Positions 2,071 through 44,396 of a stretch of DNA of 44,396 nucleotides are shown here, in pieces; within the stretch, counting starts at the first letter, position 1; the number at the start of each line of letters is the position of its first letter. The stretch comes from Hyphomonadaceae bacterium. GTDB taxonomy: Bacteria; Pseudomonadota; Alphaproteobacteria; Caulobacterales; Hyphomonadaceae. The stretch is from NCBI GenBank assembly GCA_947474455.1, contig CANJIL010000023.1, positions 1 through 44,396 on the forward strand, read 5' to 3'. A program made the translations under genes and the position numbers. Below the pieces are notes generated by a model. It saw only the letters and a program-made list of their open reading frames with translations. It had not been told where the DNA came from and made no database searches.

Positions 2071-2721
2071 TTAGTGTAACAATGCCGCACCCGCGAACCC
2101 GCCGACCAGGATCACGACGAACAGCAGCATGAACAGGCCGACGCGCTTTTCGATCACAGGGGCGAGCGTGGGGCCGAAGGTCTTGAACAGCCAGGCGACC
2201 AGGAAGAAGCGCACGGCGCGCGTGACCAGGCACGCTGCGATGAAGATCGGCAGGTTGAACTCCATCGCGCCGGACACGATGGTTACCAGCTTGAAGGGGA
2301 TGGGGGTCATGCCCTTGAGGAATATGATCCAGACGCCCGCGGCCGCATAAGACGCGCGCAGCTCGTCTTCCTTCCCACCATAGCCGAAGACAGAGATGAT
2401 CGCCGAGCCGACGGCCTCGAACAGGTAAAAACCGATGGCGTAGCCAAGTACCGCGCCCAGCACGGACGAGATGGTGCAGCCAAGGGCGTAGCGCCAGGAG
2501 CGCTCCGGCCGAGCGAAGCACATGGGGGCCAGCATGACGTCCGGCGGGATCGGGAAGAACGAGCTTTCGGCGAAGGAGATAGCCCAGAGTGCGGGTTCCG
2601 CGCTCTTTCCGCCAGCGAGACGGATCACCCAATTGTAGAGGGCGCCCAGGGGACCCCTCGCCTTGGGCGCGTGCGCTGGAGCAACGTCGGATGCGTCAGC
2701 CACAGTTGTCGCATCACTCAT
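2071..2721 (-). CDS. DedA/YqaA-type inner-membrane protein
   Basis: Integral membrane protein of 216 residues in the DedA/SNARE-associated superfamily, closest in layout to YqaA. Members are linked to lipid flipping, membrane homeostasis and small-molecule resistance; the substrate here is unknown. Visible marks are the re-entrant motif FAESSFFPIPPDVMLAP near residues 50-66, a glycine-rich GAVLGYAIGF segment, and the second re-entrant KGMTPIPFKLV, followed by C-terminal hydrophobic helices. ATG 2721 is chosen over 2742 because AGGTG sits about 6 bases before it. It diverges from dsbB across about 170 bases that must hold both promoters. Confidence 0.8.
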   Translation of the reverse strand: MSDATTVADASDVAPAHAPKARGPLGALYNWVIRLAGGKSAEPALWAISFAESSFFPIPPDVMLAPMCFARPERSWRYALGCTISSVLGAVLGYAIGFYLFEAVGSAIISVFGYGGKEDELRASYAAAGVWIIFLKGMTPIPFKLVTIVSGAMEFNLPIFIAACLVTRAVRFFLVAWLFKTFGPTLAPVIEKRVGLFMLLFVVILVGGFAGAALLH

Positions 2722-2891
2722 GGGATCACCTGTTTCCCGCACCGCACAAAACCGGATTTAGCCCTAGCATGGGTCGGGTCACGTGACACCTCAACCAGCC
2801 GCAAGGCCTGCAGCTGACTTCCAATGCAAGTTAAACGGCGCTGCTCTTTGGTCGCATTGCCGCCTACCTCCCCCCCGATACCTTCAAAACC

Positions 2892-3443
2892 ATGAATAAG
2901 TTGCCGCTTGATCGGGCGAGGTGGCCGCTTGGAGCCCTCCTTGTGTCCGCAGCCATGCTCGCGGCGGCTTTCGGCATTTTTGAGACTCTGATGCATCTCG
3001 CGCCATGCCAGATGTGTTGGTGGCAGCGGTACGCCCATTTTGCAACGTGCGCTGTGGCGCTGGCCGCCATTGTGCTCAATTGGCGCGGTGCCGGACCGCA
3101 GCTTATGACGGTTCTCTCGATCCTTATCGGGCTGACGTTCGCGGTAAGTTTCTTCCTGGGAAGCTGGCATGCCCTGTTCGAATGGAACCTTGCCCCGGGC
3201 CCTGACACCTGCGAGGCGGCTTCGGGATCGGAGCCAATTACGGGCAATCTTTCGGATATTCTGAGCCGCCCGTTGGGCATCGTGTCCTGCAAGGAAGCGA
3301 TGTGGCGGTTGCCGAATGCGCCGTGGGGACTTTCCATGGCAGGCTTCAACGGGATCATTTCGGGCGTGCTCATGGTGCTCAGCTTCTATTCCGCCACCCA
3401 GCCGCCAATGCGCGACACAGCCAACGAGCCGGTGCAGCCATGA
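2892..3443 (+). CDS. dsbB: Disulfide bond formation protein, DsbB family
   Basis: Inner-membrane quinone reductase that reoxidises periplasmic DsbA and passes electrons to ubiquinone. The 183-residue protein has four hydrophobic helices. The first loop has the redox pair CQMC (C39, C42) followed by WWQR, and the second periplasmic loop has C107 and C133, the other disulfide of the family. The motif PWGLSMAGFN precedes the last helix. The stop overlaps the coq7 start as ATGA. The pairing is apt, because DsbB needs ubiquinone and Coq7 helps make it. It belongs to the short alphaproteobacterial branch of the family. Confidence 0.85.
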   Translation: MNKLPLDRARWPLGALLVSAAMLAAAFGIFETLMHLAPCQMCWWQRYAHFATCAVALAAIVLNWRGAGPQLMTVLSILIGLTFAVSFFLGSWHALFEWNLAPGPDTCEAASGSEPITGNLSDILSRPLGIVSCKEAMWRLPNAPWGLSMAGFNGIISGVLMVLSFYSATQPPMRDTANEPVQP

Positions 3444-3973
3444 GCCTCACGTCGAATCGCCGCCAGGAGATGCTGCGCGTCGACCATGCCGGCGAATACG
3501 GCGCAGTGGCGATCTATCGCGGACAGCTTGCCGTGTTCGAGCGACAGCAGGGGCGCGAGAAGATCACTGGCCAACTGCAGGAGATGTCGGCGCAGGAGCG
3601 GGAGCATCTCGACGCTTTTGACAAGCTGCTTGTCGCCGGCAGCGTGCGGCCAACGGCGCTGTCGCCGTTGTGGAATGCCGCCGGTTTTGCGCTGGGAGCG
3701 GCGACCGCCCTGCTCGGCGAGAAGGCCGCGCATGCATGTACCGAGTCGGTCGAGACAGTGATCGAGGAGCATTATGGCGACCAGGTCGCCGAGCTTGAGG
3801 CGGCAGGTGAGAGCGAGCTCGCGGCGCGCATGTCTAAGTTCCGCGACGATGAAGTGGCGCACAAGGAGCTAGCGGTCGCCGAAGGCGCAGCGCAGGCGCC
3901 GGCCTATCCGTTGCTGTCGGCGTTGATCCGCTTTGGATGCCGCGCGGCGATCCGGATCAGCGAGAAGGTCTAG
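3440..3973 (+). CDS. coq7: Demethoxyubiquinone hydroxylase (Coq7)
   Basis: Di-iron monooxygenase that hydroxylates demethoxyubiquinone in the penultimate steps of ubiquinone synthesis, bound to the inner face of the membrane. The carboxylate ligands of the ferritin-like fold are visible: E19 in RVDHAGEYGAV, E53 and H56 in EREH, E105 before IEEHY, and E138/H141 in DDEVAH. The 177 residues match the compact bacterial form. ATG 3440 lies in the overlap with the dsbB stop; an in-frame ATG at 3302 lies within dsbB and is rejected. The two genes form one operon. Confidence 0.93.
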   Translation: MSLTSNRRQEMLRVDHAGEYGAVAIYRGQLAVFERQQGREKITGQLQEMSAQEREHLDAFDKLLVAGSVRPTALSPLWNAAGFALGAATALLGEKAAHACTESVETVIEEHYGDQVAELEAAGESELAARMSKFRDDEVAHKELAVAEGAAQAPAYPLLSALIRFGCRAAIRISEKV

Positions 3974-4358
3974 GCGAGTTTCGGCCACGCACTCTCCTTC
4001 GCAAGAGGCTTAACTGACCTGCGGCATGCCGTAGCTATCCCTCAAATGAGGGCGCGGGGCGCGCGTCATGCGCCGTGGGTAGCGCCAGTGCCTGCCTTTT
4101 TGGGCAGGCGGATGCGCGTGAAACGCCCCTTCACTGACCGTTTGTCCCGGTTCGGCTGCACGAGGGGTTGTTTCGGTCATCCGGGCGGCGTGATGCCTGG
4201 CGCCTTGGCTCGACGCCCGTTCACCCGGCTCAGCGTGTTCGGAAGTCATCCGACATAACCCCTGGCGCATGCGTAGCAAGTAGGCGGATCACGGGCGGAC
4301 AAGCGAGACGGGCATGGTGCAGCATGCTCAGCAATTCGTCAGCACGCCCTCGTGGCGG
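3974..4358. other. Intergenic stretch with one hairpin
   Basis: About 385 bases without a supported gene. A perfect 7-bp hairpin, GCCTGCC-TTTTTG-GGCAGGC, lies at 4090-4109 and could end transcription of dsbB-coq7. Short reading frames on both strands (4046-4258 plus; 4010-4279 minus) have mixed third-position base use and no family resemblance. Confidence 0.4.
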
Positions 4359-6261: not shown

Positions 6262-8940
<2,679 letters not shown>

Positions 8941-32560: not shown

Positions 32561-34246
32561 ATGGCGGACAGCGCAGTCATTGCGAACCTCAGGGCGGTCA
32601 TTCGCCAGGCGGCGTCTGACGCCGAGGCCTATTTCCTTGAATTGCGCAAATCCGTTGCGGAGCGGGTCGCCCCCGGCGGGAAAGTCGATCGCAAGAAGAT
32701 CGACGAGGAACAGCGCGCCACCCACGGCCTCGCCTGGGTGCTGACCTATGTCGAGACGCTCAAGGAAACCGCCAACTGGGCCGACCGCATCGCGGACGAG
32801 GGCAAGTTCGGCGAGATCGAACAGCTGCTGACCCAGATCCTGTTCGGAGAATACCTCTACCAGCTCGGCGGCGGCCTGCCGATGACGCAGCTCGAGATCG
32901 TCCGCCCAAGCGACATGACAGCCAACCCGGCTGTGATCCAGAAGCTGGGCACCCCGGCGATCCTCACCCTGATCACCAGAGGCAACACGGCCGCTGCACG
33001 CATGGCGGCGGCGAAGTTCATCCGCGGCTTCCTCGAAAGCCAGAAGGCAAGCGTGGAATACACCGGCCTTGAGGAGACACTCGAGCAGATCCGCGACCAA
33101 TTCCGCAAGTTCGGCAAGGAAGTCGTCGAACCGCACGCGCATCAGTGGCACATGGACGACGTGCTCATCCCCGACGCCGTCGTGAAACAGATGGGCGAGC
33201 TGGGCGTGTTCGGCCTCACCATCCCGGAAGAATTCGGCGGCCTCGGCCTCGGCAAGACGGCGATGTGCGTCGTCTCGGAAGAACTCAGCCGCGCCTATAT
33301 TGGCGTGGGCTCGCTCGGCACGCGCTCCGAGATCGCGGCCGAGCTGCTGCTCAACGGCGGCACGCGCGCCCAGCAGGAGAAATACCTGCCCGGCATCGCC
33401 TCCGGCGAAATCTTGCCGACCGCTGTCTTTACCGAACCAAACACCGGCTCCGACCTCGGCAGCCTGCGCACGCGCGCCACGCGCGATGGCGACAAGTGGA
33501 AGATCACTGGCGCCAAGACGTGGATCACGCACGCCGCGCGCGCCGACCTGATGACGGTGCTTGCCCGCTCCATTCCTAACACCAGCAACTTCTCCGGCCT
33601 CTCGATGTTCATCTGCGAGAAGCCGCGCGGCACAGACGACAACCCCTTCCCTGCGAAAGGCATGACCGGCGGCGAGATCGAAGTGCTCGGCTATCGCGGC
33701 ATGAAGGAGTACGAGCTCGGCTTCGACGGCTTCGAAGCGCCAATCGAAAACCTGCTCGGCGAAGTTGAAGGTATGGGCTTCAAACACCTCATGACGACGT
33801 TCGAAGGCGCCCGTATCCAGACCGCGGCCCGCGCCATCGGCGTTGCGCAGTGCGCATTCGAACTCGGCCTCAAATACACGCTCGACCGCAGCCAGTTCGG
33901 CCGGCAGATCTTCGACTTCCCACGCTCGTCCGACAAGCTGGTGATGATGGCCGCCGAACTCGTCGGGGTGCGCCAGCTCACCTATTTCTCCGCGCGCCAG
34001 AAGGACGCCGGCAAGCGTTGCGATCTCGAAGCCGGCCTCGCCAAAATGCTTGCGGCGCGCATTGCCTGGAGCGCGGCGGACAACGCGCTGCAGGTGCATG
34101 GCGGCAACGGCTTCGCCCTGGAATATCAGATCAGCCGCGTCCTATGCGACGCGCGCATCCTCAACATCTTCGAGGGCGCAGGCGAGGTTCAGGCCATGGT
34201 CATCGCGCGCCGCACGATCGACGAATTCATAGGCGCGAAGAACTAG
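32561..34246 (+). CDS. mcd: Acyl-CoA dehydrogenase, probable (2S)-methylsuccinyl-CoA dehydrogenase
   Basis: FAD enzyme; by layout the methylsuccinyl-CoA dehydrogenase of the ethylmalonyl-CoA pathway, which assimilates acetyl-CoA without isocitrate lyase. The 561 residues have the extra N-terminal domain of about 165 residues that distinguishes Mcd from ordinary acyl-CoA dehydrogenases (VDRKKIDEEQRATHGLAW, LFGEYLYQLGGGLPM). The standard fold follows: IPEEFGGLGLG, AVFTEPNTGSDLGSL, WITHAARADLMTVL, RSQFGRQIFDFP and QVHGGNGFALEYQISR. Electrons would go to ETF and the ETF-QO at 25.9-27.6 kb. No other pathway genes are in the window, so substrate is by similarity. Confidence 0.85.
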   Translation: MADSAVIANLRAVIRQAASDAEAYFLELRKSVAERVAPGGKVDRKKIDEEQRATHGLAWVLTYVETLKETANWADRIADEGKFGEIEQLLTQILFGEYLYQLGGGLPMTQLEIVRPSDMTANPAVIQKLGTPAILTLITRGNTAAARMAAAKFIRGFLESQKASVEYTGLEETLEQIRDQFRKFGKEVVEPHAHQWHMDDVLIPDAVVKQMGELGVFGLTIPEEFGGLGLGKTAMCVVSEELSRAYIGVGSLGTRSEIAAELLLNGGTRAQQEKYLPGIASGEILPTAVFTEPNTGSDLGSLRTRATRDGDKWKITGAKTWITHAARADLMTVLARSIPNTSNFSGLSMFICEKPRGTDDNPFPAKGMTGGEIEVLGYRGMKEYELGFDGFEAPIENLLGEVEGMGFKHLMTTFEGARIQTAARAIGVAQCAFELGLKYTLDRSQFGRQIFDFPRSSDKLVMMAAELVGVRQLTYFSARQKDAGKRCDLEAGLAKMLAARIAWSAADNALQVHGGNGFALEYQISRVLCDARILNIFEGAGEVQAMVIARRTIDEFIGAKN

Positions 34247-34407
34247 CTTTCCCTCAGGTGCATTCCCAGCACGTGAACCCGCTCATGCGTTAGCGTGATC
34301 CATACTATCGTTTGTTTGGCCCGATCGATCAAAACCGCTCGCAGCTTGCTCTGGCGGCAAGGCGCCAGCCTGCTATCATGGGAGAGATACATCAAGGGAG
34401 CACTGCA

Positions 34408-35583
34408 ATGAAACGCTGGATCGTATTGGCGGCGGTCGTCGCGTTGGCGGGATGCACAACATCGAGCATGTCTGCTGGCGGACCATCGTCGAGCTGGGTT
34501 GCCGCGTGGGGCGCCTCGCCAACTCCGCCCATGCCCGACAGCAAATCATTCGAGAACCAGACCGTGCGCCAGATCGTGCGCGTGTCGACCGCCGGCCAGC
34601 AGCTGCGCGTGCGGCTTACCAATGAATATGGCGAGGCCCCGCTTGAGATCGGAGCGGTCACTGTTTCGCTCGCCGGAGCGAATGGCGCCCCCGTCCCGCT
34701 CACCTTTGCCGGGCAACCTTCCACGAGCATTCCCCGCTTCTCGCCGATGGTGAGCGACCCGGTCGCACTGCCGGTGAAGGCGTTCGACCAGATCGTGATC
34801 ACAACCTATCTGCCCAAGGCGACCGGCAAATGCACGTGCCACGCGCTGGGCGTTTCCAATACAGAAATCTCTGGTCCGGGCGACTTCACGCGCAGCGGCT
34901 TCACTGCGGTCGACAAGTTCACACAGCGCGCTTTCGTATCCGCCATCGAGGTTCAACCCACGACGCCAACCCGCTCCATCGTGACGTTCGGCGATTCGAT
35001 CACTGACGGCCTTGGCTCGACCGTGGACGGCAACAAGCGTTGGCCGGATGTCCTCGCCGAGCGGCTGAACGCCGTCAGAAAGGACCGGTCGATCGTCAAC
35101 GAGGGTATCAGCGGCAATCGCCTCCTCAGCTTCGGCCGGCCCGCGGCGGGCGAGGCAGGCGTTTCGAGATTCGATCGCGACGTGTTGTCGATACCCAATG
35201 CCGGCTGGGTGACGGTGCTGATCGGCGTCAATGACATGCGCAGGGCGGACGGCCGACCCAGCCCCGAAGTGATGATCGCCGGCTATCGCCAGGTCATCGA
35301 TCGGGCGCACGCGCATGGATTGAAGGTCTATGGGGCGACTGTCCTGCCCTATGGCGGCTCGACCGCCTACACGCCGGAGGGCGAAGCCATACGCCAAGCC
35401 GTCAATTCCTGGATCCGCACGAGCAAGGCTTTCGACGCCGTGATCGACTTCGATGGAGTCATGAAGGATCCCGCTGATCCCACGCGGATGGTCGCCAACC
35501 TGCAGGTTGGCGATTGGCTGCACCCCAATGACGCAGGCTACAAGGTGATGGCGGACTCGATCGATTTGTCCCTGTTCAACTGA
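34408..35583 (+). CDS. SGNH/GDSL-family hydrolase lipoprotein
   Basis: Exported esterase-type hydrolase of 391 residues. The signal RWIVLAAVVALAGC has a lipobox, so it is probably lipid-anchored. An N-terminal beta domain (AAWGASPTPP, TVRQIVRVSTAGQQLRVRLTN) precedes the SGNH core: nucleophile Ser in TFGDSITDGLG, the Gly block NEGISGNRLL, Asn in VLIGVNDMR, and Asp/His in GDWLHPNDAGY. The arrangement resembles bacterial lysophospholipase or rhamnogalacturonan-esterase-like SGNH enzymes. AAGGGAG lies eight bases before ATG 34408, better than the longer frame from 34312. Confidence 0.88.
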   Translation: MKRWIVLAAVVALAGCTTSSMSAGGPSSSWVAAWGASPTPPMPDSKSFENQTVRQIVRVSTAGQQLRVRLTNEYGEAPLEIGAVTVSLAGANGAPVPLTFAGQPSTSIPRFSPMVSDPVALPVKAFDQIVITTYLPKATGKCTCHALGVSNTEISGPGDFTRSGFTAVDKFTQRAFVSAIEVQPTTPTRSIVTFGDSITDGLGSTVDGNKRWPDVLAERLNAVRKDRSIVNEGISGNRLLSFGRPAAGEAGVSRFDRDVLSIPNAGWVTVLIGVNDMRRADGRPSPEVMIAGYRQVIDRAHAHGLKVYGATVLPYGGSTAYTPEGEAIRQAVNSWIRTSKAFDAVIDFDGVMKDPADPTRMVANLQVGDWLHPNDAGYKVMADSIDLSLFN

Positions 35584-35688
35584 GACGTCTATTTTTTCGG
35601 GATCGGATTTGCTGCCCGCCGCAATCGATGGCTAGACTAGGCGATGCGCGCGGGCAGCCTACCTTCCTCCTGCAAGAGGAGGTCGCTC

Positions 35689-35955
35689 ATGGGCGAACCC
35701 GTGCGCAAGGATCTGCTGGTATTCCTGCATTACGGCGATGTCGCCATAGGCGCCGTACGCGGCATGAAGGACAACGACCTGATCGTCTGCATCGAGAGCG
35801 CCGGCGACTTTACCTCGCCCCGCAGCGCCGTTCATGATGTCGATTTCGACAAGGTCATCCTCGACGGCCGCGAGCCGGGCAAGAAAACCCGTGCCGCCAC
35901 CGGCCGCGCTCATGCCGCTGAGGACGACGAGGATCACGAGCCAAACGTCGATTGA
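35689..35955 (+). CDS. Small cytosolic protein of unknown function
   Basis: The 88-residue protein starts at ATG 35689 with GAGGAGG seven bases upstream, a strong ribosome site that rules out the longer frame from 35644. It has a beta-rich first half (DLLVFLHYGDVAIGAVRGMK, DLIVCIESAGDF) and a charged, disordered tail (ATGRAHAAEDDEDHEPN). No family recognised. It converges on the yciB gene. Confidence 0.6.
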   Translation: MGEPVRKDLLVFLHYGDVAIGAVRGMKDNDLIVCIESAGDFTSPRSAVHDVDFDKVILDGREPGKKTRAATGRAHAAEDDEDHEPNVD

Positions 35956-35964
35956 CGCGCCGCG

Positions 35965-36669
35965 TCAGCCCGCCGGATTCGGAACCTTAGAGTCTTTCTT
36001 GTGCGCCACTGGAACGCCGGCGGCTGCGGCGGTTACGACGTCATTGCGCTCAGTCGCAGGCAAGGCGTGCTTGGCCATCAGCCGGGTGAGCAGGAAGGCG
36101 TAGAGTCCGCTCGCCGGCATGATGATGGCGATCTTGAACAGTATCCAGACATTGACCCCGTCCATTTTGAAGCCGAACAGGTTGTAGGTGTTGCCCGGCG
36201 CATAGCCGATGCGCACCACCTCGTTCGCTACCGCAGTGGCGACGAAGAACCACGCAAAGCTCCAGGTGAACTGGTCCCAGCCCTTCTGCGTGTAGTGGAA
36301 CGTCTTCTCGAGAATGTATTTGAAGAAATTCTTCTTCACGACCAGCCCGGCGAAGAGGAACAGCGCGAAGCCGGCGTTGAAGATCGTGACCTTGATCTGC
36401 ACCCACATCGGATCGTGCGTGACCAGCGTCAGAATGCCGAAAACCACGGTGACGGCCGAAGCGATAAGCGGGAAGATGGGCAAGCGCTTGAGCACGACCA
36501 GCATCGCGACCACCGCCAGCACGGTCGAGATGATTAGCGCCCACGTTCCGTCCTCGACATTGCCGGTGATCGCATTGACGACGAACAGCGCCACCAGCGG
36601 CCCGAACTCGGACGCGATGTTCACGGTCTGCTCGGCGTTGAACGGATAAACCCGTTTGACCCAGTCCAT
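35965..36669 (-). CDS. yciB: Inner-membrane septation protein YciB/IspZ
   Basis: Polytopic membrane protein of the YciB/IspZ family, implicated in cell division and envelope synthesis. The 234 residues contain five to six helices and the family marks FGPLVALFVVNAITG, RLPIFPLIASAVTVVFG, HDPMWVQIKVTIFNAGFALF, GWDQFTWSFAWFFVATAVANE and a C-terminal ARLT-like LLTRLMAKHALPA. An N-terminal YPFNAEQTVN is somewhat unusual. It lies downstream of the exported-protein array on the same strand but is separated from it by a hairpin and about 375 bases. Confidence 0.92.
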   Translation of the reverse strand: MDWVKRVYPFNAEQTVNIASEFGPLVALFVVNAITGNVEDGTWALIISTVLAVVAMLVVLKRLPIFPLIASAVTVVFGILTLVTHDPMWVQIKVTIFNAGFALFLFAGLVVKKNFFKYILEKTFHYTQKGWDQFTWSFAWFFVATAVANEVVRIGYAPGNTYNLFGFKMDGVNVWILFKIAIIMPASGLYAFLLTRLMAKHALPATERNDVVTAAAAGVPVAHKKDSKVPNPAG

Positions 36670-37046
36670 GGGCGAAAATCCCTGTCCCGCGTCCCGCGTC
36701 CCTCAGGCATCTGAGCAACGCCGCGTCCCGATTCAAGTCCTATCGGGGGCTCTACAGGCCGTAAATACGGCTTGATCAAATGCTTACAGGTGAGGTTCCG
36801 GCGCCGCTTTTCCGGCATTCCGAGCCGTCTCGGGTCGGCCAGGACCCGCCCGATTTACTCAGGAATACGCCAAAAGGTGCGTCGACAGACGATTTCGAGC
36901 TTCTGACCAAGACCGTCGGCGTACTGATTTTGGCCATCCAGACGCACTGCCTGACGTAAATAGCCCCGCTGCCGGTAAGGCTGCGGGGCTATTCCAGTCG
37001 CAACCTCGGCAGCCCGCACACGCAGGCTGGCGATGAATTGCGGGTG
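36670..37046. other. Intergenic region between array and yciB
   Basis: About 377 bases with no supported gene. The right end holds the terminator-like hairpin of the array (36959-36993). The yciB promoter must lie between that hairpin and 36669. A short minus-strand frame (36621-36818) overlaps the yciB start and has no family resemblance. Confidence 0.4.
36959..36993. terminator. Terminator-like hairpin downstream of array copy 7
   Basis: An 11-bp stem, AATAGCCCCGC with GCGGGGCTATT, has an inner GCC/GGC pairing around GGTAA. On the minus strand it is followed by TTACG. It lies about 54 bases past the stop of copy 7, the last gene of the array, and is A/T-flanked on both sides, so it could work in either direction. 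Confidence 0.7.
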
Positions 37047-38138
37047 TTACTGCCCGCCCTTTATGTTCTTGGTCTTGGCCTTGGCGCTCTCCGCAGCCCA
37101 GCGGCGCTCTTTCTCGCGCGCGCCAGCAAGAATCCCGGTCATGCCGTAATTGCCTTCATGGCAAGCGTATTCGTACATGCCCTTCGACGGGTAGAAGCTG
37201 AGCTCGGCTTTCCACGGCTGGGTATACGTGTCCGGGTCGTCCACGGTGAATTCGTAGACGACATCCTTTTCGCTGGCGCGCGTGAAACGCTCGGTGATCA
37301 CGGCTTTCGGAGAGATCGTGAAACCATGGTTCTGCTGCTGCTCGGGATAAACGTTGATAGTCTCCATCACGAACGTGTCGCCTTCCCACCAGCCGACAGA
37401 GTCGCCGAACCAGGGTTTGATGGCTGACGGCTTGTGATGCGCGCGAGCCTCCGCCGCAGTCGCGAAGATCGGCGCGATGCGGGCTTCATGCACCATCTCG
37501 ACGAGGATCATCACGTAGTCCGCGGTCTGAACGAAACGGTAATTGTTGTTGTAAGAGCCGGTGAGCATGCCGGGGCCGCCGGTATTGCCGAGGCCAATCA
37601 GGCAGCGTTCCCCCAGGTTCGGAACTTCAGGGCCTTCATAGGCCACGCCTCCGCTGTCGCTGTTATACTGCTCCCGCAACTCCCGATCGAGCCTGCGCCT
37701 TTCTGCGTCCCCTTTCGGATCCTTGAGCGGCAGCTGTCCGTTGGCAGGTTCGACGATATAGGAGGTGCGATACTCTCCCCTGACGAAGGCGAGCTTGTTG
37801 CCCGGGTCTCGCCAGAAGAAGTCGTAGGCCTGAACGAGCGAATCTTTGCCGCCTTTGGGCGGAGGGCCTGCCTTGGGATCGGAATAGGCTGAGCTGTTGT
37901 ACAGCTCATTGACCGTGTAACCGCCGACCGAATGCCCGTCGACGATCCGCTTGGCCTCCTCCTCGGAGACGACGAGCGTCTTGTTCGCCGGTGCGCGCTG
38001 CAGCGGCGTCACCGAAGCGTGCGACCATATGCCGGTAAGATCCGGCTTTCCGTCCCTGGCGCGCGGGACCTGCGCCATGGCGGGCGCCGCCGCGATCGCA
38101 ATCGCAAACGCAATCAACGCCGGTCTGAGCATAGGCAT
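37047..38138 (-). CDS. Array copy 7: exported family protein, unknown function
   Basis: Last member of the tandem family by transcription order; 363 residues, the longest. It has a Sec signal (LRPALIAFAIAIAAAPAMAQ), then GKPDLTGIWSHASVTPLQRAP, PKGGKDSLVQAYDFFWRDPG, GEYRTSYIVEPANGQLPLKD, a single Cys in ERCLIGLGNTGGPGM, GDSVGWWEGDTFVMETINV, ERFTRASEKDVVYEF and YTQPWKAELSFYPSKGMYEY, ending ACHEGNYGM plus a Lys/Ala tail KGGQ. It carries an extra stretch (RRRLDRELREQYNSDSGG) compared with its siblings. Two conserved cysteines could form a disulfide in the periplasm. Bases 37921-38015 are identical to copy 6. Function unknown. Confidence 0.85.
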   Translation of the reverse strand: MPMLRPALIAFAIAIAAAPAMAQVPRARDGKPDLTGIWSHASVTPLQRAPANKTLVVSEEEAKRIVDGHSVGGYTVNELYNSSAYSDPKAGPPPKGGKDSLVQAYDFFWRDPGNKLAFVRGEYRTSYIVEPANGQLPLKDPKGDAERRRLDRELREQYNSDSGGVAYEGPEVPNLGERCLIGLGNTGGPGMLTGSYNNNYRFVQTADYVMILVEMVHEARIAPIFATAAEARAHHKPSAIKPWFGDSVGWWEGDTFVMETINVYPEQQQNHGFTISPKAVITERFTRASEKDVVYEFTVDDPDTYTQPWKAELSFYPSKGMYEYACHEGNYGMTGILAGAREKERRWAAESAKAKTKNIKGGQ

Positions 38139-38189
38139 CGCTGTTCCTCCTCGCGTGTGTCGATGGGCGTTCGAACGCGCGATTATCTG

Positions 38190-39263
38190 TTATTGTCCGC
38201 CCTTCATCGTTTTCGACTTGGCACTCTGCGCCGCAGCGCGACGCTCTTTTTGGCGCGCGCCTTCCAGAATGCCGATCATCCCATAATTAGCCTCGTGGCA
38301 GGCGTACTCGTACATGCCCTTCGACGGGTAGAAGCTGAGCTCGGCTTTCCACGGCTGGGTGTAGTGCACCGGATCGTTTACGGCGAATTCGTAGAAAACG
38401 TCCTTCTCGCTTGTGCGCGTCAGACGCTCAGTGATGATGGCGTTGGGCGATATCGGGAATGACTGCTGGCTCTCCGCCTGCTCCGGATTGATGTTGGTCG
38501 TCTCCATCACGAACGTGTCGCCTTCCCACCAGCCGACGGAGTCGCCCAGCCAGGGTTGGATGACGTTCGGCTTGTGGCTGGCGCGCGCCGTCTCGGCAGT
38601 CGCGAAGATCGGAACGATGCGCGCGTCGTGCGCCATCTCCACCAGGATCATCACATGATCCGGGGCCTGAACGAACTGGTAATTGTTGTTGTACGACGTG
38701 CTCAGCATGCCGGGGCCGCCGGTATTGCCGAATCCGATCAGGCAACGCTCGGCGATCTGCGGCGCTTCGGGGCCTTCATAGGCGGAGTTGCCGCTGTTGT
38801 AGCGTTCCCGATCGAGCAGAACTCTTTTCTTCTGCCCCTCCGGATCCTTGAACGGCAGCTGGCCGTTGGCGGGTTCAACGATATTCGACGTGCGGTATTC
38901 GCCATTTACGATGGCGAGGCTCGAGCCCGGATCCCTCCAGAAGAAATCGTAGGCCTGAATGAGGGCTTCTTTGCCGCCCTTCGGCAGGGCGCCCTTGGTG
39001 GGATCGGAATAGGCCGAGCCGTTGTAGAGCTCCTTGACCGAGTAGCCGCCGACCGAATGCCCGTCGACGATCCGCTTGGCCTCCTCCTCGGAGACGACGA
39101 GCGTCTTGTTCGCCGGTGCGCGCTGCAGCGGCGTCACCGATGCATGCGTCCACACACCCGTCAGATCTGGCTTGCCATCACTGGTTCGTGGAGCCTGCGC
39201 CGTAGCCGGCGCCGCCATGATCCCAACTGCAAGCGCTGCAAGCGCCGGTCTCAAGACACGCAT
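38190..39263 (-). CDS. Array copy 6: exported family protein
   Basis: A 357-residue paralogue; ATG 39263 begins RVLRPALAALAVGIMAAPAT with signal cleavage near TAQ. The N-terminal third (DGHSVGGYSVKELYNGSAYS, AYDFFWRDPG) is like copy 7, while the middle (EAPQIAERCLIGFGNTGG and ASHKPNVIQPWLGDSVG) is like copy 2, so the gene looks mosaic. The C-terminal motif differs slightly: CHEANYGM and ILEGARQKER where siblings have CHEGNYGM and ILAGAREKER. The longer frame to 39308 adds residues unlike any sibling. Its stop lies about 50 bases before copy 7. Confidence 0.85.
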   Translation of the reverse strand: MRVLRPALAALAVGIMAAPATAQAPRTSDGKPDLTGVWTHASVTPLQRAPANKTLVVSEEEAKRIVDGHSVGGYSVKELYNGSAYSDPTKGALPKGGKEALIQAYDFFWRDPGSSLAIVNGEYRTSNIVEPANGQLPFKDPEGQKKRVLLDRERYNSGNSAYEGPEAPQIAERCLIGFGNTGGPGMLSTSYNNNYQFVQAPDHVMILVEMAHDARIVPIFATAETARASHKPNVIQPWLGDSVGWWEGDTFVMETTNINPEQAESQQSFPISPNAIITERLTRTSEKDVFYEFAVNDPVHYTQPWKAELSFYPSKGMYEYACHEANYGMIGILEGARQKERRAAAQSAKSKTMKGGQ

Positions 39264-39322
39264 GGTTCCTCCTTGCGCGTGCCGGCGCACGCCATCGCGC
39301 GCCGACACCTACGTTCATCGAT

Positions 39323-40384
39323 TTATTGTCCGCCTTTTGCAGTCCTGACCTTGGCCGTCTTGGCGGCTGCCCGGCGTTCCTTTTCACGCGCGCCGGCGAG
39401 AATGCCGATCATGCCGTAATTGCCCTCGTGGCAGGCGTACTCGTAGAGCTGCTTGGCCGGGTAGAAGCTGGATTCGGCCTTCCAGGGCTGCGTGTACGTC
39501 GCGGGATCAACGACGCTGAACTCGTAGAAGATGTCCTTCTCGCTCGTGCGCGTGAAACGTTCGGTGATCACGCCTTTGGGCGACATCGGGAAGCCATGCG
39601 CCTCGGCTTGTTCGGGATGTATGTTGGTCGACTCCACCACGAATGTGTCACCTTCCCACCAGCCGACGGAGTCTCCGAACCATGGGTGCAGCGCCGCAGG
39701 CTTGTGGCCTGCCTTGGCCTTTTCGGCGCTCTCGAAGATCGGCACGATGCGGGCGTCGTGCACCTGCTCGATCTGGATCACCATATGGTCTGGCGTCTGA
39801 ACGAACTGGGAGTTGTTATTGTACCCGCTGCTGAGCATGCCGGGCCCGCTCCTCGGCGGGAAGACAATGCAGCGCTCGCCCAGCGTCGGATCTTCCGGAC
39901 CTTCGTATGCGGCATTGCCGGTGTCATAGCGTTCGCGGTTGGCCAGCCGGGCCTTCTCCTGCCCCACCGGATCGACGAACGGCAGCTGGCCGCTGGGCGG
40001 ATCGACAACGTAGGAGGTGCGGTATTCGCCCTTCACCAAGGCAAGCGAGGTGCCTGGATCCCACCAGAAGCTGTCATAGGCTTGGATGCCGAAGTCCTTG
40101 CCGCCCTTGGGCGGAGCGCCCTTGTTGGGATCGGAGTAGTTGGTTTTGTAGCCCTCTTCCTTGATCCCGCCGACCGCATAGCCGCTCGCGATCCGCTTGG
40201 CCTCTTCCTCGCCGACGACCAGTGTCTTGATCGTCGGCGCGCGCGTCAGCGGTGTCACCGATGCGTTGGTCCAGTTGCCGGTGAGATCGGGCTTGCCGTC
40301 CCTCGTCCTTGGCACCTGCGCCATGGCAGGCGCCGCCATGATCACGACGACAAGCGCAGCCAGCGCCGGTTTCAGCATCCGCAT
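39323..40384 (-). CDS. Array copy 5: exported family protein
   Basis: A 353-residue paralogue starting at ATG 40384 (RMLKPALAALVVVIMAAPAM). It shares GGIKEEGYK and DFGIQAYDSFWWDPG with copies 3 and 4, but the block after the first conserved Cys is distinct: ERCIVFPPRSGPGML instead of the GFGNTGG form. YEYACHEGNYGM is intact. It is the first gene after the duplicated promoter-like region at 40435-40541 and heads the unit of copies 5-6-7, whose gaps are only about 50-60 bases. Confidence 0.85.
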   Translation of the reverse strand: MRMLKPALAALVVVIMAAPAMAQVPRTRDGKPDLTGNWTNASVTPLTRAPTIKTLVVGEEEAKRIASGYAVGGIKEEGYKTNYSDPNKGAPPKGGKDFGIQAYDSFWWDPGTSLALVKGEYRTSYVVDPPSGQLPFVDPVGQEKARLANRERYDTGNAAYEGPEDPTLGERCIVFPPRSGPGMLSSGYNNNSQFVQTPDHMVIQIEQVHDARIVPIFESAEKAKAGHKPAALHPWFGDSVGWWEGDTFVVESTNIHPEQAEAHGFPMSPKGVITERFTRTSEKDIFYEFSVVDPATYTQPWKAESSFYPAKQLYEYACHEGNYGMIGILAGAREKERRAAAKTAKVRTAKGGQ

Positions 40385-40434
40385 CAGCCTCTTCCTCCTG
40401 TGGGGCGGCGTCCTTCGCGGAACGCTCTCTCTTT

Positions 40435-40544
40435 CGCTATCCTACCCCGGAGTCAGAGATCCGCAGAAGCTTCCTTGCACTTGCTGGTGGTAACTTTTTC
40501 TCACGGCAAGCGTCGTGGCCGTGACCTCCAGAATGAGGTCAGGC
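40435..40544 (-). promoter_or_regulatory. Promoter-like region upstream of array copy 5
   Basis: Duplicate of the region upstream of copy 3. On the minus strand a -35-like CTGCGG (40466-40461) and -10-like TAGGAT (40444-40439) are 16 bases apart, with GANTC (40450-40454) in the spacer. Further upstream is the shared GGTAACTTTTTC block (40489-40500 as written on the plus strand). A hairpin, GGCC(G)TGACCTC with GAGGTCAGGCC (40517-40544), lies beyond it and may end the copy 4 transcript. Confidence 0.5.
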
Positions 40545-40586
40545 CATTACGCGTCGGGAACCTTTCAGCGATTGTGCGGAGAGCGG

Positions 40587-41657
40587 CTACTGTCCCCCCT
40601 TCACCGTCTTGGTCTTCGCCTTAGCGGTCTTCGCCGCGTCCAGGCGCTCCTGCTCGCGCGCGCCGGCGAGGATGCCGATCATGCCGTAATTGCCTTCGTG
40701 ACAGGCATACTCGTACATCCCCTGCGACGGGTAGAAGCTGAGCTCGGCCTTCCACGGCTGCGTGTAGTAGGCCGGATCATTGACGCTGAATTCGTAGAAG
40801 ATGTCCTTGTCGCTGGTGCGTGTGAAGCGCTCGGTGACAATGCCCGTCGGCGACAGCGAGAAGGAATGCATTTGTCCCTGCTCGGGCTTCACGTTGGTGG
40901 TTTCCATCACGAATGTGTCGCCTTCCCACCAGCCGACAGAGTCGCCGAGCCAGGGCTCAAGCGCCGCCGGCTTGTGATGCTTGCGCGCTTCCGCCGGTGT
41001 CGCGAAGATCGGAATGACGCGGACCTCGTGGATCATCTCCGTCACGATCAGCATGTGATCCGGCGTCTGCACGAAACGATAATTGTTGTTGTACGCGCTA
41101 CTCAGCATGCCGGGGCCGCCCGATACGCCGAACACAACACAACGCTCCATCAGCGTCGGCACTTCCGGACCGTCATAGTTGTCGTTGCCCGTTTCGTAGA
41201 TCTTCCGGCGGTCGGTGCGCTTCTTGGTTTCTCCAGCCACGTCGATGTAGGGAATCTGTCCGTTAGCGGGCTCGACAATGTTGGAAGTGCGGTACTCGCC
41301 CTTCACCTTGCCGAGCATGGTGCCCGAATCCCACCAGAAATTGTCGTAAGCTTGAACGCCGAAGTCCTCGCCACCCTTGGGCGGGGCGCCCTTGTTCGGG
41401 TCGGAATAGGTCGAGCCCTTGTAGCCTTCTTCCTTGATGCCGCCGATCGCATAGCCGCCCGCAATGCGCTTGGCGTCTTCCTCGTTCACGACCAGCGTCT
41501 TGTTCGTGGGCGCACGCTGCAGCGGCGTCAGCGACTTGTTGGTCCAGAAGCCAGTGAGGTCTGGCTTTCCATCGGCAGCCTTCGGAACCTGCGCCATAGC
41601 AGGCGACGACATGACCGCAATGACCAGCGCCGACAGCGCCGCTTTGAACATCCGCAT
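40587..41657 (-). CDS. Array copy 4: exported family protein
   Basis: A 356-residue paralogue. ATG 41657 (RMFKAALSALVIAVMSSPAM) follows GGAGG by about nine bases; the much longer frame to 41834 runs back into copy 3 and is rejected. Features include GGIKEEGYKGSTYSDPNKG, GGEDFGVQAYDNFWWDSG, ERCVVFGVSGGPGMLSSAYNN and GDSVGWWEGDTFVMETTNV, ending YEYACHEGNYGM and tail KTVKGGQ. The tail matches copy 3 closely (TKTVKGGQ). It is second in the unit headed by copy 3, with a perfect 8-bp hairpin (41680-41704) in the gap. Confidence 0.85.
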   Translation of the reverse strand: MRMFKAALSALVIAVMSSPAMAQVPKAADGKPDLTGFWTNKSLTPLQRAPTNKTLVVNEEDAKRIAGGYAIGGIKEEGYKGSTYSDPNKGAPPKGGEDFGVQAYDNFWWDSGTMLGKVKGEYRTSNIVEPANGQIPYIDVAGETKKRTDRRKIYETGNDNYDGPEVPTLMERCVVFGVSGGPGMLSSAYNNNYRFVQTPDHMLIVTEMIHEVRVIPIFATPAEARKHHKPAALEPWLGDSVGWWEGDTFVMETTNVKPEQGQMHSFSLSPTGIVTERFTRTSDKDIFYEFSVNDPAYYTQPWKAELSFYPSQGMYEYACHEGNYGMIGILAGAREQERLDAAKTAKAKTKTVKGGQ

Positions 41658-41679
41658 CAGCATCCCTCCAGAAAGGCTG

Positions 41680-41704
41680 GCGCACCACCGCTGCGATGGT
41701 GCGC
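41680..41704. repeat. Intercistronic hairpin between array copies 3 and 4
   Basis: A perfect 8-bp stem, GCGCACCA and TGGTGCGC, with a nine-base loop lies about 25 bases before the copy 4 start. A second small stem, CCGCCG and CGGCGG (41743-41761), follows directly after the copy 3 stop. No T-run follows either, so mRNA stabilisation or differential expression within the unit is more likely than termination. Confidence 0.45.
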
Positions 41705-41763
41705 CCGTTGGTCTTCCCGCATTCCAGCGCCTGGCTCGAAGGCCGCCGCCAGAGCCGGCGGGG

Positions 41764-42831
41764 TTACTGTCCGCCCTTGACCGTTTTTGTTTTTGCATTG
41801 GCGCTTTTGGCTGCAGCCCGACGGTCTTTCTCACGGGCGCCGGCGAGGATGCCGATCATGCCGTAATTGCCTTCGTGGCAGGCGTACTCGTATATCGCCT
41901 TAGACGGGTAGAAGCTGAGCTCCGCCTTCCACGGCTGCGTATAGAGTTCCGGGTCGTTGACGATGAACTCGTAGAATATGTCCTTATCGCCCGTGCGCGT
42001 GAAGCGCTCGGTGACGACACCCGTCTGGGACAGCGGGAAGCCGTGGTTCTCAGCCTGCAGCGGCTTCACGTTGATGGATTCCATCACGAACGTATCGCCT
42101 TCCCACCATCCGACAGAGTCGCCTGCCCAAGGCTTGAGAGCCGCGGGCCTGTGATGCGTGCGGGCTTCCACAGCCGTCGCATAGATCGGGATAATGCGGG
42201 TATCCGGGCCCATTTCGACCTGGATCACCATGTGGGTCGGCGTCTGCGTGAACTGGTAATTGTTGTTGTACCCGCCGCTCTGCATGCCAGGGCCGGCTTT
42301 CGAGCCGAACATCACGCAGCGCTCGCCTAAGGTCGGCACTTCCGGACCGTCGTAATCGGCCTTGCCGGTCTCGTAGACGTCGCGGCGCATCTTTCGCTTC
42401 TTCGCATCCGCTTCCGGATCCTTGAGCGGCATCTGGCCGTTGGGCGGATCGACGATGTTGGATGTGCGCCACTCACCCTTTACGAAGGCGAGCTTGGTGC
42501 CCGGATCCCACCAGAAGCTGTCATAGGCCTGGACGCCGAAGTCGTCGCCGCCCTTGGGCGGAGCGCCCTTGGTCGGATCGGAGTACGTCGTCTTGTAGCC
42601 TTCTTCCTTGATGCCGCCGACCGTGAAGCCAGCTGCAATTCGCTTCGCTTCCGCCTCGCTGACGACCAGCGTCTTGTTTTCCGGCGCGCGCTGCAGCGGC
42701 GTCACCGAAGCGTGTGTCCACACGCCGGTCAGATCCGGCTTTCCATCAGAAGCCTTTGGAACCTGCGCCAAGGCGGGCGCCGCCATGATCGCAACAGCAA
42801 GCGCAGTCAATGCCGGTCTCAGCATCCTCAT
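41764..42831 (-). CDS. Array copy 3: exported family protein
   Basis: A 355-residue paralogue starting at ATG 42831 (RMLRPALTALAVAIMAAPAL, cleavage near LAQ). It shows GKPDLTGVWTHASVTPLQRAP, GGIKEEGYKTTYSDPTKG, GEWRTSNIVDPPNGQMPLKD, ERCVMFGSKAGPGMQSGG, an unusual MGPDTRIIPIYA, then GDSVGWWEGDTFVMESINVK and YEYACHEGNYGM. The promoter-like region at 42885-42995 lies directly upstream, making this the head of the copy 3-4 unit. In the longer frame to 42867 the added residues are not family-like. Confidence 0.85.
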   Translation of the reverse strand: MRMLRPALTALAVAIMAAPALAQVPKASDGKPDLTGVWTHASVTPLQRAPENKTLVVSEAEAKRIAAGFTVGGIKEEGYKTTYSDPTKGAPPKGGDDFGVQAYDSFWWDPGTKLAFVKGEWRTSNIVDPPNGQMPLKDPEADAKKRKMRRDVYETGKADYDGPEVPTLGERCVMFGSKAGPGMQSGGYNNNYQFTQTPTHMVIQVEMGPDTRIIPIYATAVEARTHHRPAALKPWAGDSVGWWEGDTFVMESINVKPLQAENHGFPLSQTGVVTERFTRTGDKDIFYEFIVNDPELYTQPWKAELSFYPSKAIYEYACHEGNYGMIGILAGAREKDRRAAAKSANAKTKTVKGGQ

Positions 42832-42884
42832 CGGTCTCACTCCTCTGGGCCGGCTCCTTGTGATCACGGAGCGCTCATCCTCTC

Positions 42885-42995
42885 GTCATTCTATCCCGGA
42901 GTCAGAGGCTCGCAAAAGCTTTCCCGTCTTTGCTTATGGTAACTTTTTTCACACGCCAAACATTCGCGTCCGTGACCTCCGAATGGAGGCCACGG
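42885..42995 (-). promoter_or_regulatory. Promoter-like region upstream of array copy 3
   Basis: On the minus strand, -35-like TTGCGA (42915-42910) and -10-like TAGAAT (42893-42888) are 16 bases apart, about 57 bases before the ATG. A GANTC site (42899-42903) lies in the spacer. Upstream is GGTAACTTTTTTC (42938-42950, plus-strand writing), shared with the region before copy 5. The far end is a hairpin, CCGTGACCTCC-GAAT-GGAGGCCACGG (42970-42995), which pairs best on the minus strand and could terminate copy 2. The similarity over about 105 bases shows that gene and promoter were duplicated together. Confidence 0.55.
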
Positions 42996-43059
42996 ACTTA
43001 CGTTCGGGGGAACCCGACGGATGTGATTAGCGGTCTAAATGGACAGGCGGATAGCTAGC

Positions 43060-44124
43060 CTACTGTCCGCCCTTCGCCGCTTTCTTGGAAGCCACCGAAG
43101 CCGCACGACGCTCTTTCTCACGGGCGCCGGCGAGGATGCCGATCATACCGTAATTGCCTTCGTGGCAGGCGTACTCGTACATGCCTTTCGACGGGTAGAA
43201 GCTGAGCTCGGCCTTCCAAGGCTGAGTGTAGATTTCAGGATCGTTGACCGTGAAATCGTAGAAGATGTCCTTTCCGCTCGTGCGCGTCAGGCGCTCAGTG
43301 ATCACCGCTTTCGGCGAGATGGGGAAGCTCTGGTTCACGGCCTGCAGCGGCTTCACGTTTATGGATTCCATCACGAACGTGTCGCCCTCCCACCAGCCAA
43401 CCGAGTCGCCCAGCCAGGGCTGGATGACGTTCGGCTTGTGACTGGCCCGCGCCTTCTCCGCGCTGTCGAAGATCGGGATGATGCGGGCGTCATGCGCCAT
43501 CTCGACCACGATCATCATGTGCTCGGGCGTCTGCACGAACTGGTAGTTGCTGTTGTACGAGCTGCTCAGCATGCCCGGGCCGCCGGTGTTGCCGAAACCG
43601 ATCAGGCAACGCTCCGCGATCTGCGGCGCTTCTGGGCCTTCATAAGCGGCGTTGCCGGTCTCATAGCGATCCCGGTTCTGCAGAGCCCTTGTCTTCTGCC
43701 CTTCCGGATCCTTGAACGGCAGCGTGCCGCTGGCCGGTTCGACAATATACGAGGTGCGATATTCGCCCTTCACGATGGCGAGCCGGGAGCCCGGATCCCA
43801 CCAGAAGCTGTCATAGGCCTGCACGCCGAAGTCCTTGCCGCCCTTGGGTGGCGCACCCTTGCTCGGGTCGGAATAGGTCGAGCCTTTGTAGCCCTCCTCC
43901 GTGATGCCGCCGATCGCATAGCCGGAGGCGATCTTCTTCGCTTCCGCTTCGTCGACTACGAGCGTCTTGTTGGCGGGCGCGCGCTGCAACGGCGTAAGTG
44001 CAGAGTGGGTCCAGAAGCCAGAGAGATCCGGCTTTCCGGTCGATGCCCTCGGCACCTGCGCCATGGCGGGCGCTGCCACGATCGCAACAGCAAGCGCAAT
44101 CAGCGCCGGTTTGATCATATGCAT
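43060..44124 (-). CDS. Array copy 2: exported family protein
   Basis: A 354-residue paralogue. ATG 44124 (HMIKPALIALAVAIVAAPAM) follows GAGGAG by eight bases. It has GGITEEGYKGSTYSDPSKG, DFGVQAYDSFWWDPG, GEYRTSYIVEPASGTLPFKD, EAPQIAERCLIGFGNTGG, ASHKPNVIQPWLGDSVG and SGKDIFYDFTVNDP, with YEYACHEGNYGM near the end. Its tail lacks the TKTV piece and ends KKAAKGGQ. The middle block links it to copy 6, and the N-terminal third to copies 3-5. About 72 bases separate it from copy 1, with no promoter-like duplicate in the gap. Confidence 0.85.
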   Translation of the reverse strand: MHMIKPALIALAVAIVAAPAMAQVPRASTGKPDLSGFWTHSALTPLQRAPANKTLVVDEAEAKKIASGYAIGGITEEGYKGSTYSDPSKGAPPKGGKDFGVQAYDSFWWDPGSRLAIVKGEYRTSYIVEPASGTLPFKDPEGQKTRALQNRDRYETGNAAYEGPEAPQIAERCLIGFGNTGGPGMLSSSYNSNYQFVQTPEHMMIVVEMAHDARIIPIFDSAEKARASHKPNVIQPWLGDSVGWWEGDTFVMESINVKPLQAVNQSFPISPKAVITERLTRTSGKDIFYDFTVNDPEIYTQPWKAELSFYPSKGMYEYACHEGNYGMIGILAGAREKERRAASVASKKAAKGGQ

Positions 44125-44196
44125 GTATAGTTCTCCTCGTTGCGATCCATCACTTAGTGTTCAGGCATGCGCACGCGATCGGCGCAGGCCGCTATC

Positions 44197-44396
44197 TATT
44201 GTCCACCCTTCGCCATTTTCTTGCCAGTCAGCGCAGCCGCGCGACGCTCTTTCTCACGGGCGCCCGCGAGGATGCCGATCATGCCGTAGTTTCCTTCATG
44301 GCAGGCGTATTCGTACATGCCCTTCGACGGGTAGTAGCTGAGCTCGGCCGTCCAGGGCTTGGTGTAGGTTTCGGGATCGTTGACGGTGAACTGATA
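44197..44396 (-). CDS. Array copy 1: exported family protein, cut by window edge
   Basis: Only the C-terminal 66 residues are in the window: FTVNDPETYTKPWTAELSYY, PSKGMYEYACHEGNYGM, ILAGAREKERRAAALTG and tail KKMAKGGQ with TAG at 44199-44197. The small changes TKPWTAELSYYP against TQPWKAELSFYP mark it as a separate paralogue. The array therefore continues to the right of the window and may hold more members. Confidence 0.85.

Follow-up and report, generated by a model that had tools for sequence, protein, structure and literature searches.

The contig CANJIL010000023.1 of a Hyphomonadaceae bacterium, analyzed here over its whole length of 44,396 nucleotides and referred to as the window (contig C23 of a source genome of 3.29 Mb in 103 contigs, assembly GCA_947474455.1), carries a minus-strand array (37047-44396) of six intact genes and a seventh truncated at the edge of the contig. 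The array appears to encode one exported, presumably periplasmic protein, here named LONG, in at least seven diverged versions. It belongs to a wider expansion of the LONG family across the genome, and some members of the family lie, at other loci, beside a shorter paralogue (SHORT) and proteins of the families DUF6152 and DUF6644. The reading that we favor, though tentatively, is that the array genes specify a diversified set of periplasmic subunits, ligand-binding or catalytic, belonging to an envelope module not yet described. Expanded exported families often reveal what a bacterium feeds on. In the present case a nameless expanded family is tied by co-occurrence to nameless partners that offer hints of their own (a heme-binding motif, a His-His start, a location in the membrane), and several labels of unknown function become one testable system recurring in Alpha- and Gammaproteobacteria.

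Seven diverged copies of one gene

A first-pass annotation, made from the letters of the window alone, had described seven head-to-tail minus-strand paralogues, one cut by the edge. This is indeed the arrangement found: six intact genes are preceded by the final 66 codons and stop of a seventh (g7, 44196-44396), which is 85% identical to g6 across 66 residues. Since the window is an entire contig, the right end of the array is an assembly break. The intact genes, all on the minus strand, are g6 (43060-44124; 354 residues), g5 (41764-42831; about 355), g4 (40587-41657; about 356), g3 (39323-40384; 353), g2 (38190-39263; 357) and g1 (37047-38138; 363), the last in the reading direction; their products thus span 353-363 residues. 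The starts of g4 and g5 were placed at the ATG codons at 41657 and 42831, respectively: the mechanically listed open reading frame (ORF) of g4 (40587-41834) begins too early, and the ATG used for g5 likewise lies later than its listed start. As judged by eye, the ATG of every intact gene is preceded at a distance of a few bases by a purine-rich ribosome site, and every intact copy has a Sec-like signal ending in AxAQ.

The common motif layout previously attributed to the copies applies in full to ERC, PKGG and the KGGQ end, each of which, like GDSVGWWEGDTFV, is present in all six intact proteins. GEYRTS and GKPDLTG, by contrast, are found in only five of the six (g5 has GEWRTS and g6 GKPDLSG), and the same is true of YEYACHEGNYGM, replaced by CHEANYGM in g2, and of TQPWKAELSFYP, replaced by AESSFYP in g3. 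The cut copy carries TKPWTAELSYYP and terminates in KGGQ.

All 15 pairs of intact copies are 64-76% identical, with ratios of nonsynonymous to synonymous substitution (dN/dS) of 0.21-0.28 and dS values of 0.66-1.01. The copies are old and are kept by purifying selection. The same identities and ratios exclude a chance pattern, and an assembly duplicate is ruled out by the divergence between copies, which amounts to at least 24% of residues. A phage or plasmid system was rejected as well, a search of phage and plasmid records with a window protein having returned no match.

An unnamed family with a predicted barrel fold

Searches of Pfam, NCBIfam, PHROGs and PDB sequences with the array proteins gave nothing above cut-off, and Pfam returned 0 matches at E 0.01 for 111 family members, lipocalin-type and solute-binding models included. 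The description of the products as exported-looking proteins of an unnamed family is therefore borne out, and a match to a well-characterized enzyme family was found in none of the four resources. A resemblance to a secreted family of Acidobacteria had also been suggested; no Acidobacteria label occurs among the 80 named loci, that is, those listed as nearest to the array proteins, many of them on short contigs. The open-licence literature yielded nothing on such a family or array, and no paper naming DUF6152 or DUF6644; the passages of PMC3174227 consulted do not concern the LONG family.

Structure prediction followed by Foldseek, one of the checks suggested in the first-pass annotation, gave a weak pointer to a fold. 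The AlphaFold2 model of g6, built from 111 sequences, has a predicted local distance difference score (pLDDT) of 85 and a predicted template modeling score (pTM) of 0.83. Its core consists of one strand at residues 36-39 and eight strands between residues 193 and 311, residues 40-189 forming an insertion. At the top of the Foldseek list stand cellular retinol- and retinoic-acid-binding proteins (best E 7.5e-4, template modeling (TM) score to target 0.44), and all of ranks 1-40 are retinoid- or fatty-acid-binding barrels. With moderate confidence, LONG is predicted to have a calycin-like beta-barrel fold whose first strand is followed by a large insertion, an assignment weakly supported by these matches. 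It resembles the calycin superfamily in the predicted beta-strand meander of its C-terminal half and in its best structural matches; the GxW of the first calycin strand has a counterpart in G36 and W38, present in all six window copies and in at least 90% of the 111 rows. It departs from calycins in having no sequence match to them, an insertion of about 150 residues, a Cys pair and many conserved charged residues. As an exported protein with many paralogues, LONG also recalls Bug/TctC, an expanded family of periplasmic binding proteins in Bordetella and Cupriavidus, from which it differs in the lack of a solute-binding Pfam match and in its predicted barrel as opposed to a two-lobed fold. Variation among the array copies follows the predicted fold as the first-pass annotation had supposed, barrel loops being more variable than strands (23 of 62 loop positions invariant against 35 of 60 strand positions; p 0.03, one test).

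SHORT is without most of the LONG insertion. Residues common to both (54 rows) are two Gly, one of them in GxW, two Cys, one Arg, two Glu and one Asp. Outside the window, 23 near-full LONG copies were fetched from the source genome. All 23 retain R172, C173, E208 and R214; E277 and D295 are found in all 22 copies extending to these positions; for E317, C320 and E322 the count is 21 of 21, and for H321 it is 14 of 21. The conservation of E317, C320, H321 and E322 in 111 of 111 rows of the family alignment is inflated because the loci were retrieved with the peptides VGWWEGD and YEYACHE. The conserved Cys pair perhaps forms a disulfide.

Some relatives of LONG lie beside other envelope proteins

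Sixteen loci were fetched, mostly because of DUF6152 hits, and counts made on them are biased toward such hits. SHORT, LONG and DUF6152 stand side by side in 10 of the 16 (L156-L164 and L170), in the order SHORT-LONG-DUF6152 or SHORT-DUF6152-LONG. Four LONG genes separate SHORT from DUF6152 in L156, and L162 has two LONG genes. SHORT and DUF6152 occur with no adjacent LONG in L168, L171 and L132; L165 and L167 have DUF6152 alone, and L166 and L169 other arrangements. A DUF6644-type pair together with a lipoprotein is present in 11 loci (L132, L156-L160, L162-L164, L168 and L170), including 9 of the 10 that unite SHORT, LONG and DUF6152. All 11 lipoproteins carry a CxxCH motif; their match to cytochrome c' is weak (best E 9e-5, below cut-off). 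Pfam confirmed DUF6644 (PF20349) for both proteins of L156 and of L160 and for the one scanned from each of L158 and L163, and put one protein of the L132 pair above and the other below cut-off; in the remaining loci the assignment rests on phmmer. NCBIfam gave no match for eight of the module proteins of L160. HupE and a one-span 'anchor' protein are found in 4 of the 11 loci, and also in gammaproteobacterial loci such as L066. Just ahead of the module genes in L160 lies a gene for a pyrroloquinoline quinone (PQQ)-type beta-propeller with a cytochrome domain (2234-4258); clusters of PQQ-type appearance were seen by eye in 9 of the 80 named loci.

SHORT proteins mostly have a lipoprotein signal. 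In DUF6152 (PF19649), a small exported protein, a His-His pair at the predicted start of the mature chain follows directly on the AxA of the signal and a Pro-His comes later, in 25 of 25 rows (L066, L070, L089, L097, L110, L114, L132 and L156-L171), L110 and L161 being the same contig, so that at most 24 distinct loci are represented. Copper sites of the CopC and lytic polysaccharide monooxygenase type typically include a His at the mature N-terminus, and metal binding by DUF6152 is for this reason a testable guess. Sphingomonad plasmids were also retrieved with SHORT, at 22-30% identity, and five records were examined. One from Novosphingobium humi unites two DUF6644 proteins, the SHORT match and DUF6152; one from Croceibacterium has two DUF6152 proteins, the SHORT match and a TonB receptor; one from Sphingobium has no DUF6152 or DUF6644 names, and the two others are without annotated genes. 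In the source genome, a locus on contig C1 (L132, 4399-10998) has kept SHORT, DUF6152, the DUF6644 pair and the lipoprotein. A short ORF of transposase-like appearance (by eye; 7778-8353) lies between DUF6152 and the DUF6644 pair, where LONG would be expected.

The association is also apparent at the level of whole genomes. Among 41 relatives, DUF6152 and the LONG family occur in exactly the same 19 genomes; counted by genus, this first set gives 5 of 5 against 0 of 15 (p 6e-5). TonB receptor numbers were uninformative, at least about 31 being present in 25 of the 41. In a survey of 200 genomes of the order, in which at most 10 candidates were scored per genome, LONG or SHORT was found in 21. 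DUF6152 is present in all 21 of these versus 10 of the 179 others (nominal Fisher p 3e-21), and DUF6644 in all 21 versus 5 of 179 (nominal Fisher p 5e-24). The control DUF1993, which adjoins LONG in some named loci, shows no link (15/21 versus 132/179, p 0.80). Every one of the 26 genomes with DUF6644 also has DUF6152. The DUF6152 matches of the 10 genomes lacking the family are weak (E 2e-7 to 6e-13), and 19 of the 21 family genomes have a match better than 1e-20. Genomes with the LONG family thus nearly always hold a few further unstudied envelope proteins.

The array belongs to a genome-wide expansion

A phylogeny of 69 proteins unites the six copies of the window in a single clade (support 99/96), nested in a group of 13. 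The rest of the group consists of a broken copy from the source genome and, for either of two sister species, three of its four array copies. Fourteen relatives of the same genus have one to four copies of the wider clade near their best match, one array being cut by a contig end; the surroundings of the best match are what was fetched, and identity of the locus was verified by gene order only for L039, L041, L042 and L043. Genome-wide numbers are far higher: all 15 genomes of the genus have 15-41 LONG family matches at E 1e-20, versus 1-6 matches per genome for DUF6152. Two of the 23 near-full copies fetched from the source genome have an in-frame stop, and 12 of the 23, spread over six contigs, make up a second clade, which contains source-genome members only as sampled here and may not be species-specific. 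Contig C40 holds five further head-to-tail LONG copies (L119, 6287-13444), together with one copy related to the window array and bearing an in-frame stop.

Beyond the genus, the family is patchy. Of 10 other genomes of the same taxonomic family, three have 5, 16 and 31 matches and seven none. Named relatives, among the matches listed, come from Hyphomonadaceae, Phenylobacterium, Steroidobacter, Pseudohongiella, SAR86, two Gemmatimonadota-type metagenome-assembled genomes and others. A survey of the phylum, with at most five candidates scored per genome, found matches in 7 of 398 genomes, which is a sign of sparse spread only. Expanded exported families are as such familiar; the LONG family and its module appear to be undescribed.

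Possible roles of the array

If the array does supply subunits to an envelope module, LONG, as a probable calycin-like barrel with a conserved Cys pair, Arg, Glu and Asp, would bind and perhaps convert a small periplasmic molecule. A hydrophobic ligand is the first guess because of the predicted fold. The partners seen at other loci, namely SHORT, a resident LONG, DUF6152, the two DUF6644-type membrane proteins, the cytochrome c'-like CxxCH lipoprotein and, in some loci, a HupE/UreJ-type membrane protein, would then handle the compound or electrons. We infer that specificity would have changed from copy to copy, the genus having multiplied LONG to broaden its range of compounds. That LONG is multiplied and DUF6152 is not is as expected if LONG sets that range. 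A bolder form of this proposal, which we regard as improbable, would join LONG and SHORT barrels with a c'-type cytochrome lipoprotein, the DUF6644 pair and DUF6152, the last as an N-terminal-histidine metal (copper) protein, in a new periplasmic redox system, whose substrate-binding subunit the genus would have made into an interchangeable set of some 15-41 versions.

A number of observations weigh against assigning the array to such a module. DUF6152 is not near the window array, occurs in the fetched flanks of just 7 of the 80 named loci, and was met twice among the 100 nearest same-strand neighbors. Other family members do sit in DUF6152/DUF6644 neighborhoods, and genomes of the family hold both; unlike those loci, the window array lies elsewhere, so that its link to the module is by family and not by position. 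Physical linkage to DUF6152 is a property of part of the LONG family. Furthermore, the LONG proteins of module loci and those of the array fall on separate branches (Shimodaira-Hasegawa-like approximate likelihood ratio test, 83), and the two sets may consequently differ in function. At the C1 locus SHORT and DUF6152 are without a neighboring LONG, and the LONG gene found a few kb away has an in-frame stop. Should the module work in the source species, it would have to be served by some of the remaining LONG copies, perhaps by those in the array. As to the co-occurrence, 18 of the 21 genomes have LONG (one with stops) and 3 have SHORT-like proteins only, and the p-values are too small because the genomes are related. 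Finally, the match in fold is weak: the TM score is 0.44 to target and 0.19 to query, and no more than two hits have E<=0.001. For SHORT, the quality of the model is low (pLDDT 67); the Foldseek matches, none of them reaching E 0.001, are to hotdog, calycin/lipocalin and other folds, the best being to other folds.

Alternatively, the LONG proteins could be enzymes in their own right, for instance a lyase, hydratase or isomerase housed in a barrel and breaking down esters, lipids, terpenoids or aromatics in the periplasm, with the Arg, Glu and Asp residues as the active site. The conserved charged residues would fit this, as would the company kept by the genes: beta-lactamase-type serine hydrolases are the commonest Pfam family among the nearest same-strand neighbors (6 of 100), acyl-CoA dehydrogenases come next (3 of 100), and the window has a GDSL lipase with an acyl-CoA dehydrogenase nearby (the latter by eye). 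However, no enzyme family was matched by sequence and no clear enzyme by fold, and the neighbors are highly heterogeneous, 88 Pfam families being represented in 100 proteins; a catalytic family is, on balance, unlikely. Somewhat less likely still is that the copies share one job and serve, by their number, to make more of a single abundant periplasmic protein. The uniform layout and the identity of 14 of 14 checked family positions in all six copies speak for such a dosage effect, and the head-to-tail order fits unequal crossing-over. Nonetheless, the copies are old and not homogenized (as their identities and dS values indicate), their loops vary more than their strands, and two of them, g3 and g5, have a promoter-like block of their own (see below). 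Of the two possibilities entertained in the first-pass annotation, ligand variants or dosage, recent dosage amplification is therefore disfavored by divergence, purifying selection and these blocks. The least probable of the alternatives is birth-and-death of a loosely constrained envelope protein with a structural or coat role and little change of function. The wide range of match numbers within the genus (three of whose genomes are less than 80% complete) and the two near-full source-genome copies with in-frame stops are what such turnover would produce, but it is hard to reconcile with purifying selection in 15 of 15 pairs or with the co-occurrence with DUF6152 and DUF6644. Diversified subunits of an envelope module thus remain the reading that we tentatively prefer.

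Intergenic regions and flanking genes

Two gaps within the array stand out, both read on the minus strand: 202 bp lie 5' of g3 (40385-40586) and 228 bp 5' of g5 (42832-43059). Each contains a common hairpin followed by a promoter-like block, the copy before g5 including a -10-like TAGAAT. Among the 171 fetched loci, exact 18- and 20-base patterns from the block are confined to those overlapping the array. In a general scan for promoters and terminators, such sites were no commoner than in shuffled sequence, and Rfam gave nothing over 34000-44396. The block may reflect a duplication that carried its own promoter, and the array may be read as two or three transcripts. An inverted repeat with 15-nt arms (36959-36993, minus strand) directly 3' of g1 is possibly the end of the transcription unit, though no long T run follows it.

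As to the number of copies, the contig-extension check proposed earlier led to contig C4, which opens with the first 49 codons of a LONG-type gene on the minus strand, followed by a predicted methyltransferase gene (PF13847, E 1.7e-6) and, by eye, a second gene like it; further along lies a serine hydrolase gene with below-cut-off matches to class C beta-lactamases. By-eye comparison shows that C4 genes flank the array in L041 and L043 too, and that the first two adjoin it in L039 and L042, where the contig or stretch stops. Because C4 genes flank the arrays of relatives, C23 and C4 are most likely neighbors in the genome. Seven is the minimum number of genes in the array, and more may be concealed between C23 and C4. 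C-terminal LONG fragments of equal score are found at two other contig ends (L121, 3-146, on C18; L126, 11089-11232, on C33), suggesting that the assembly probably breaks on repeats and that the copy number is a lower bound.

On the opposite side, the array is adjoined by a minus-strand gene for an IspA-like membrane protein (35965-36669; PF04279, E 8.1e-29), also found close to the array in L039 and in 4 of the 80 named loci. A further neighbor, on the plus strand, is the gene for the GDSL-type lipase/acylhydrolase (34312-35583; PF13472, E 8.1e-31, scanned from 34405). In four Phenylobacterium and Caulobacteraceae loci (L087, L088, L104 and L106), a gene assigned by clustering to the beta-lactamase-type serine hydrolases stops at or within a few bases of the LONG start, an operon-like arrangement. 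The IspA-like gene, the GDSL lipase gene and an acyl-CoA dehydrogenase gene (the last by eye) recur near the arrays of relatives.

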